In this document: piece by piece, positions 13,459 through 56,948 of the stretch | Position numbering within the stretch: the first letter of the stretch is position 1 | How the letters are laid out: every line of letters begins with the position of its first letter | IMG/VR virus record: IMGVR_UViG_3300042482_001698 | Location: 19,755-83,754 of that record | Strand: one strand, 5' to 3' | Origin: a virus | DNA: 64,000 nucleotides | Position numbers and translations under genes: made by a program | The notes under the pieces: model-generated | What the model was told of the DNA's origin: nothing | Seen by the model: only the letters and a program-made list of their open reading frames with translations | Databases searched by the model: none

Positions 13459-13468
13459 TGAATGTATT

Positions 13469-13549
13469 GCCGCTGACCCAGAAATGGAACTGGATTGCTC
13501 TTCTAAAGCAACGGCGAAAGCCATGTGGGTTCGACTCCCGCCAGCGGTA
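13469..13549 (+). tRNA. tRNA-Arg(UCU), long variable arm
   Basis: Cloverleaf: acceptor GCCGCTG/CAGCGGT (a G-T pair at the end), D stem CCAG/CTGG with an 8-nt loop, anticodon stem TTGCT/AGCAA, loop CTTCTAA, and T arm GTGGG-TTCGACT-CCCGC. The anticodon TCT (13502-13504) reads AGA/AGG. The variable region is 13 nt and forms a GGC-GAAA-GCC hairpin, which is unusual for Arg and recalls class II tRNAs, so its identity should be treated as probable. CCA is not encoded. It has its own promoter and abuts an HNH endonuclease gene on the other strand. Confidence 0.85.
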
Positions 13550-14338
13550 TTATTTTAGATCATAAAATTTAACCCATTTTCTTATGGAACTATCAGTAAC
13601 TCCAAACATTATTCCCAATTGTGAAAAATTGTGTTTTTCTAAAAGTTTTTTTAATTCATCTCTTGTTGGACGATCAACTTTTCTTTTACTTGCAGCAGCA
13701 CATTGAACAGAGCAATGTTTCGTGTTGTAGACATCAGTTTGACAATTTGGACATTTTCCTGTTGGTTTCAAAGTATTAGTTAACAATGGGTTGGCTTCTC
13801 TTGTCTGTATCAATGATGCATCTGGATTGTGTGTTTCTCGATGACAATTGGCACAAAGAAGAACACATTTTTTAAGTTCTTCAATAGTTTTATTCCACTT
13901 CATTTCTCTTGCTTTTACCCATGTCATTTCTTTAACTGATGGATCTAAATGGTGAAATTCCATTGCCGCATAGTTTTTGCAATATCCACAAATAACACAC
14001 TTTCCTCCCATTAATTTTATTGCTTCCATTTTACGATCTAACCATCTATTTTTTTGTATTTCATACAAACAAACCTTGCAATAAGAATAATATTTTCTTT
14101 TTCCCTTTATCTTGTGAAAATAATTGACACATTTATATTCATTACATTTAATACATTTTCTTTTTATTTCATTATTTTCTATTATTTGCTTTGCTTTTCC
14201 TGTTTCTAATTTTTTGGTATTGTGTTCCCCATATGGCGAGCAATCAAGACAATAACTTCTGTTGCCGAGATTTTTTTCTTTACCATCTATTTTGATGCGA
14301 TTGGGGAAATTAGCTTGACACTTCTTGCATGTTGGCAT
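13550..14338 (-). CDS. HNH homing-type endonuclease with zinc fingers and C-terminal HTH
   Basis: A 262-residue protein. Several CxxC pairs form zinc fingers at about 4-35, 60-90 and 195-215. A central HNH nuclease core (CVICGY ... MEFHHLDP ... CVLLCANCHRETH) spans about 112-170. A C-terminal helix-turn-helix (SQLGIMFGVTDSSIRKWVKF) probably binds DNA. This layout is that of free-standing phage homing endonucleases. AGGA lies 6 nt before the ATG. Its stop directly abuts the tRNA-Arg gene, a typical insertion context. Confidence 0.85.
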   Translation of the reverse strand: MPTCKKCQANFPNRIKIDGKEKNLGNRSYCLDCSPYGEHNTKKLETGKAKQIIENNEIKRKCIKCNEYKCVNYFHKIKGKRKYYSYCKVCLYEIQKNRWLDRKMEAIKLMGGKCVICGYCKNYAAMEFHHLDPSVKEMTWVKAREMKWNKTIEELKKCVLLCANCHRETHNPDASLIQTREANPLLTNTLKPTGKCPNCQTDVYNTKHCSVQCAAASKRKVDRPTRDELKKLLEKHNFSQLGIMFGVTDSSIRKWVKFYDLK

Positions 14339-17903: not shown

Positions 17904-18225
17904 GGGCCTCTAGCTCAACTGGTTAGAGCAAACGACTTAGAAAGGAAGGCAACCTAAACAAGTTAAATCTTGCATGGTTGACTTCTATAGGGTTGCTAAT
18001 TGTTTTCATATAATTATGTGGAAGCTATTAGTAGAATCTGTCAAATTCGGTGAACCCTGTAAAATGGGAATACCGAGCCAAGCCTGAGAAATCGGGAAGG
18101 TGTAGAGACTAGACGGCAGACCCGAAAGGGAAGGTATAGTCCAGACCACAAACCCGAAAGGGGCAACGAAAGTTGTAGTGGTAAGCATAATCGTTCGGTT
18201 CTGAGTTCAAGTCTCAGGAGGCCCA
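17904..18225 (+). tRNA. tRNA-Ile(CAU) interrupted by a group I intron
   Basis: The 5' exon (17904-17937) has acceptor GGGCCTC, D arm GCTC-AACTGGTTA-GAGC, anticodon strand AACGA and C32-U33. The 3' exon (18186-18225) begins CATAA, then TCGTT, T arm CTGAG-TTCAAGT-CTCAG, acceptor GAGGCCC and A73. All stems pair perfectly once the 248-nt insert is removed, giving loop CTCATAA. The exons closely match the bacterial minor tRNA-Ile(CAU), whose C34 is changed to lysidine by TilS so that it reads AUA. No tilS is seen here, so the host must supply it. CCA is not encoded. Confidence 0.92.
17938..18185 (+). ncRNA. Group I self-splicing intron (248 nt, no endonuclease)
   Basis: It is inserted between U33 and C34 of the anticodon loop. 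The upstream exon ends in U and the intron ends in G, as group I chemistry needs. A guide GGTTG (17976-17980) can pair with exon CGACT with the U-G pair at the splice site. The core shows GACTA (18107-18111) paired with TAGTC (18137-18141) as P7, CCC-GAAA-GGG (18121-18130) as P8 and CCC-GAAA-GGG (18153-18162) in P9. It encodes no protein. Phage tRNA introns of this class are rare; similar insertions are known in bacterial tRNA genes. Confidence 0.88.
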
Positions 18226-56876: not shown

Positions 56877-56948
56877 CGAGCCGACGCATCCGGTGATGCA
56901 CCAATTCTTATACAGTTGTACAGTTTGGTTCGACTCCAAACGGCTCGA
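56877..56948 (+). tRNA. tRNA-Ile(UAU)-like
   Basis: Acceptor CGAGCCG/CGGCTCG, D arm GCAT-CCGGTG-ATGC (6-nt loop), anticodon stem CAATT/AGTTG, loop CTTATAC, V loop TACAG, and T arm TTTGG-TTCGACT-CCAAA. Anticodon TAT (56909-56911) reads AUA. One extra nucleotide lies between the D and anticodon stems and C38 is atypical, so it is a slightly degenerate tRNA. CCA is not encoded. Its promoter is directly upstream. Confidence 0.75.

Follow-up and report, generated by a model that had tools for sequence, protein, structure and literature searches.

Group I introns in bacterial tRNA genes have been described in cyanobacterial tRNA-fMet (Biniszkiewicz 1994 and Paquin 1997, as cited in PMC8450103) and in the Ile2 of Acidovorax and Burkholderia (PMC8450103). 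In phages, the group I introns of T4 (td and nrdB), Twort, SPO1 and the Bastillevirinae interrupt protein genes and often come with HNH or GIY-YIG genes. According to a 2014 review, the phage introns observed to date were all located in protein-coding genes, despite the many tRNA genes of phages (PMC3984707). Two surveys of tRNA genes in phages or viruses are silent on introns, as is the paper on phage Atu_ph07, and no description of a group I intron in a phage tRNA gene came up in full-text searches of the open-licence literature. The intron considered here is, like the known phage introns, a phage-borne element of the self-splicing type, but it interrupts a tRNA gene. Based on its sequence, we conclude that a phage tRNA-Ile2(CAU) gene is very probably interrupted by a group I intron that is intact, lacks an endonuclease gene and belongs to the bacterial tRNA type.

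An interrupted tRNA-Ile(CAU) gene and the fold of its insert

The window, i.e., the whole stretch of 64,000 nucleotides analysed, is part of the 83,754-base virus record IMGVR_UViG_3300042482_001698. The record encodes a virion structural protein (PHROG 1645, E 1.4e-99), PhoH, HNH and other phage genes, and the virion protein, PhoH and HNH place the tRNA gene in a Caudoviricetes phage genome. The gene consists of three parts:

17904 to 17937, plus strand: 5' exon of tRNA-Ile(CAU), with acceptor strand, D arm, 5' half of the anticodon stem and C32-U33; all stems pair with the 3' exon (ARAGORN on the spliced form)
17938 to 18185, plus strand: group I intron of 248 nt with a terminal G (RF00028 match; covariation over 34 introns)
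18186 to 18225, plus strand: 3' exon of tRNA-Ile(CAU), with CAUAA, anticodon stem, variable loop, T arm, acceptor strand and discriminator A

The insertion point lies between U33 (17937) and C34 (18186). In-silico splicing (17904-17937 joined to 18186-18225) results in a 74-nt tRNA(cat), in which ARAGORN finds every stem paired; CCA is not encoded at the 3' end of the gene (18225). In situ, the interrupted tRNA at 17904-18225 was missed by ARAGORN and by Rfam at gathering level, and the intron mode of ARAGORN misplaces the intron and reads Ser(aga). Using an E-value threshold, RF00028 was found to match 17997-18166 with 42.5 bits, which is below the curated Rfam gathering score of 50 (E 1.1e-9 for the local segment, 1.8e-7 for the entire window). 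When the complete record was searched for split tRNAs, 17904-18225 ranked first with a score of 42; the best of five dinucleotide shuffles of the record reached 33.

Within the intron, the following elements were assigned:

17939 to 17987, plus strand: hairpin extending P1 and containing a CCTAAAC / GCATGG element (17953-17959, 17972-17977), shared with beta- and gammaproteobacterial tRNA-Ile introns (alignment)
17991 to 17995, plus strand: internal guide sequence GGUUG, forming P1 with exon CGACU (17933-17937); the pair at the splice site is a U-G wobble
17996 to 18031, plus strand: P2 stem-loop (fold; covariation test weak owing to poor alignment)
18037 to 18120, plus strand: P3, 18037-18042 pairing with 18115-18120 (95.6% of cells paired, compensatory changes in 6 of 6 pairs)
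18047 to 18101, plus strand: P4-P5-P6-P6a domain (RF00028 match; covariation)
18107 to 18141, plus strand: P7 guanosine-site helix (GACUA 18107-18111 / UAGUC 18137-18141; 100% paired) and P8 (18121-18130; 99% paired)
18145 to 18182, plus strand: P9, P9a and P9b with GAAA tetraloops (fold; P9 98.8%, P9b 100% paired)

The element in the P1 extension resembles the 11-nt tetraloop receptor. The fold has an MFE z-score of -5.83 against shuffles, none of which was as good. For covariation, 34 same-site introns from phages and bacteria were aligned and 52 pairs counted. Across this set, 90.1% of pair cells form, and in 294 cells both sides have changed in a compensatory manner, compared to a shuffled mean of 94 (0 of 500 shuffles as high); sliding the pairing partners drops pairing to 28-42%. 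P3, P4, P6, P7 and P8 are 95-100% paired, each with compensatory changes. The columns of P1 and P2 are about 50% paired, because the alignment is poor there, and P1 was therefore tested separately by comparing the guide with the tRNA class. The guide varies with the class (Ile GGGU, fMet GGGC, Leu GAGU, Asn GCAG, Lys GAAG), and at least three Watson-Crick pairs with the own exon are formed in 84 of 196 cases; exchanging exons between classes lowers this number to 26-39. A P10 pairing requires a bulged A.

The sequence hallmarks of a group I intron were found together, namely a P3-P8 core with the P7 guanosine site, the U-G wobble of P1, a terminal G and exons that join into a tRNA in silico. 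The original prediction of such an intron in a phage tRNA-Ile(CAU) gene had been made from the sequence alone and is backed by the Rfam match, by covariation, by the pairing of guide and exon and by the related introns. Its 248-nt insert at U33|C34 has precisely the coordinates given above, exon 2 starting at C34, and the exon-final U, the intron-final G, the GGTTG guide and the P7, P8 and P9 stems it named are all present. Its nearly perfect spliced tRNA was reproduced by ARAGORN, and the Rfam covariance-model search it proposed as a check returned the RF00028 match.

Related introns in phages and bacteria

Relatives in other phages, which the original prediction had suggested looking for, were indeed found. 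Two IMG/VR pattern scans supplied the loci, which were read with an in-house parser; IMG/VR may include some cellular contigs. Among the matches listed, phage or viral records hold at least 139 interrupted tRNA genes with at least 97 distinct introns. The main classes are Leu-UAA after U34 (at least 55), CAU after U33 (at least 21) and Asn-GUU after U35 (at least 7); Arg-UCU (at least 5), Lys-UUU (at least 3) and single others follow among the matches listed, although errors are possible in such rare classes. An intron interrupts the tRNA-Leu(UAA) of the isolated Agrobacterium phage Atu_ph07, and the genomes LR756501 (735 kb) and LR756511 (595 kb) carry an intron in tRNA-Leu. In Microcoleus phage My-WqHQDG (OR578706; L289, 1314-1599), an annotated 286-base tRNA-Arg was parsed as CCU with an intron after U36; this is the sole GenBank annotation of such kind met in the analysis. 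BLAST matches in HTVC120P, cr116_1, pYD6-A and RHph_N3_13 lie among protein genes, without a split tRNA.

In some phage contigs (L033, L054, L136, L293), introns occur in a pair of tRNA genes per contig (Ile and Leu; Arg and Lys). LAGLIDADG-type ORFs occur within phage tRNA-Asn and tRNA-Leu introns (L149, L157); the ORF of L149 matches Pfam LAGLIDADG_2 and that of L157 looks alike, and other long Leu introns contain HNH genes.

Five further IMG/VR contigs carry the region of the window at 99.96-100% identity with the intron unchanged. In an unrelated phage (contig L026), tRNA and intron are 97.9% identical over 329 bases, with unrelated flanks; the cassette therefore appears to have moved recently. 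In a related phage (L307), the methyltransferase gene from upstream of the tRNA is present, and no tRNA was detected downstream of it. The methyltransferase start beside the tRNA (18277 onward) is identical in L316 (2495-2618), where the upstream sequence is wholly different; this is either a sharp mosaic joint or the end of a chimeric contig.

A scan of bacterial genomes gave at least 116 stretches, and 102 of those listed were parsed as U33|C34 introns. Among the matches listed, they interrupt tRNA-Ile(CAU) in Burkholderiales, Rhodocyclales, Opitutia and Acidobacteria, and tRNA-fMet in cyanobacteria, Omnitrophota and Bacteroidota. The position is therefore an old bacterial site, and the idea of a unique insertion site was rejected. 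On a tree of 168 intron cores, the phage Ile introns require 11 label changes, at least six of them forced, and several transfers must therefore be assumed. The intron of the window falls in the company of Ile introns from phages and Rhodocyclales and of fMet introns, a placement lacking starred support. A tree-based origin was rejected for it, since the core is too short and its nearest kin lack support.

HNH genes inside and beside tRNA genes

The insert at 17938-18185 contains no ORF of endonuclease size, which a mobile, endonuclease-encoding intron would have, and the original prediction was right in this respect. Its further claim, that the intron needs other factors or is on its way to being lost, is only partly plausible. 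In its favour, one syntenic pair of phages has an endonuclease-bearing and an endonuclease-free allele, but the window's intron, as judged from its letters, keeps the structured P1 extension common to bacterial introns and lacks signs of decay.

In two related introns (L032, L144), an HNH gene is located in the P1 loop on the opposite strand, and L296 also has an HNH gene inside its intron. Between L295 (the contig of L144) and L296, tRNA, intron and HNH are 97.8% identical over 717 bases, and the match stops at the tRNA ends, save one further short match elsewhere. L098, which is syntenic with L296, has lost the HNH gene and retains a fused stub (MLKCHTPEHTNT, then a stop, versus MLTC...PEHNNT, then a stop). 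An endonuclease remnant was also considered for the P1 loop of the window, where the reverse strand (MQDLTCLGCLPF, then a stop) resembled the start of the L144 HNH gene. This was rejected because proteobacterial introns of similar length, which have no room for an HNH gene, conserve the CCTAAAC...GCATGG hairpin as well; the remnant reading holds for L098 only.

A search with the intron HNH detected seven loci. Two lie inside an intron, and in the other five the distance to a tRNA gene is at most about 60 bases. The latter are free-standing HNH genes near phage tRNA genes (L297, L298, L299, L300, L301). The window itself contains a member of this family:

13550 to 14338, minus strand: HNH endonuclease whose family also occurs within related tRNA-Ile(CAU) introns; it abuts tRNA-Arg(UCU) at 13468-13550

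It is related to the intron HNH (45% over 84 residues). The cassette of HNH and tRNA-Arg (window 13468-14338) recurs at 88% identity over 933 bases in L324 and L325 (1442-2374), with unrelated flanks. Nucleases of this tRNA-linked family may have tRNA genes as their cleavage targets or may mobilise introns in trans, and the HNH at 13550-14338 is a possible partner in trans of the window's intron. More speculatively, phage tRNA anticodon loops could be a contested homing site, with one HNH family residing beside phage tRNA genes and having entered some tRNA-Ile(CAU) introns. Endonuclease-free introns would then either be spread in trans by free-standing HNH genes (13550-14338) or shield tRNA genes by destroying the nuclease target. 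We consider this scenario conceivable but rather doubtful.

The tRNA-Arg(UCU) at 13468-13550 has a long variable arm of class-II type (GGCGAAAGCC) and in part resembles phage tRNA-Leu genes. This is unusual for a tRNA-Arg; AGA makes up 41% of Arg codons. A tRNA-Ile(tat) reported by ARAGORN at 56877-56948 has an odd D arm, lacks Rfam support and is probably a false call.

Alternative readings and comparison with known systems

The spliced tRNA combines the anticodon CAU with C4-G69 and C5-G68, which are the TilS-positive pairs of E. coli Ile2. A tRNA-Ile2(CAU) reads AUA once TilS makes lysidine at C34. ARAGORN names the spliced form Met(cat), and if it were an elongator tRNA-Met, lysidine would be unnecessary. 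However, the program cannot separate CAU tRNAs, and besides the two pairs, the nearest intron-bearing bacterial tRNAs among the matches listed are GGGCCTNTAGCTCA tRNAs from Burkholderiales and Opitutus, of the Burkholderiales Ile2 type. The reported Ile2 introns of Acidovorax and Burkholderia (PMC8450103) likewise argue against Met. The two pairs and the closest bacterial tRNAs thus support Ile2 as the predicted identity, and a Met product is unlikely. No TilS gene was found in the phage record, so TilS of the host would be needed; AUA accounts for 443 of the 1681 Ile codons of the phage (26%).

It might be argued that only a dead or slow remnant of an intron is left, with the tRNA gene effectively a pseudogene and AUA decoded by the host, as the intron has no endonuclease gene, its RF00028 score is under the cut-off and the syntenic pair shows that such introns lose endonuclease genes. 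Nevertheless, the core helices and both exons are all intact, RF00028 matches in spite of the AT-rich context, and the near-identical copy in an unrelated phage differs mainly in the P1 extension; we regard decay as quite improbable. An assembly artefact or cellular contamination, which the metagenomic origin of the record might suggest, has a negligible probability given the five other near-identical assemblies, the virion protein, PhoH and other phage genes of the record, and the same kind of gene in the isolated phage Atu_ph07.

For an intact intron at 17938-18185, splicing, lysidine formation and mobility would be expected to proceed as follows. The transcript folds into the group I core, as sequence and covariation show. 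According to the chemistry of the family, guanosine bound in P7 would attack just downstream of U33, which P1 holds in a U-G wobble; U33, once released, would then be joined to C34 beyond the terminal G. The product would be a normal 74-nt tRNA, in which the host's TilS would convert C34 to lysidine for reading AUA. Intron and tRNA gene most likely came as a cassette from another phage or bacterium and not via an endonuclease of their own.

The many natural pairs of phage and bacterial tRNA introns at the same site make it possible to test which way the introns were transferred and what part the tRNA-linked HNH genes play. Further, standard tRNA finders miss such interrupted phage tRNA genes, as ARAGORN did in the window.

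SegB belongs to a nuclease family different from that of the window's HNH. The free-standing, tRNA-targeting homing endonucleases of the SegB type in T4-like phages (PMC13096335) are likewise encoded beside phage tRNA genes, but an intron is not involved in that system. The 205-nt intron of the Azoarcus pre-tRNA-Ile shares with the window's intron the tRNA-Ile(CAU) host, the IC3 type and the absence of an endonuclease, but its guide, GUG, pairs with exon CAU, which places it elsewhere in the anticodon loop. The introns of bacterial tRNA-Ile2(CAU) and tRNA-fMet agree with that of the window in the U33|C34 site, the core and a similar P1 extension, and are mostly endonuclease-free as well; they are located in cellular chromosomes, whereas the window's intron resides in a phage tRNA gene. 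The insertion site is thus already known, while its phage host is apparently undescribed and widespread.
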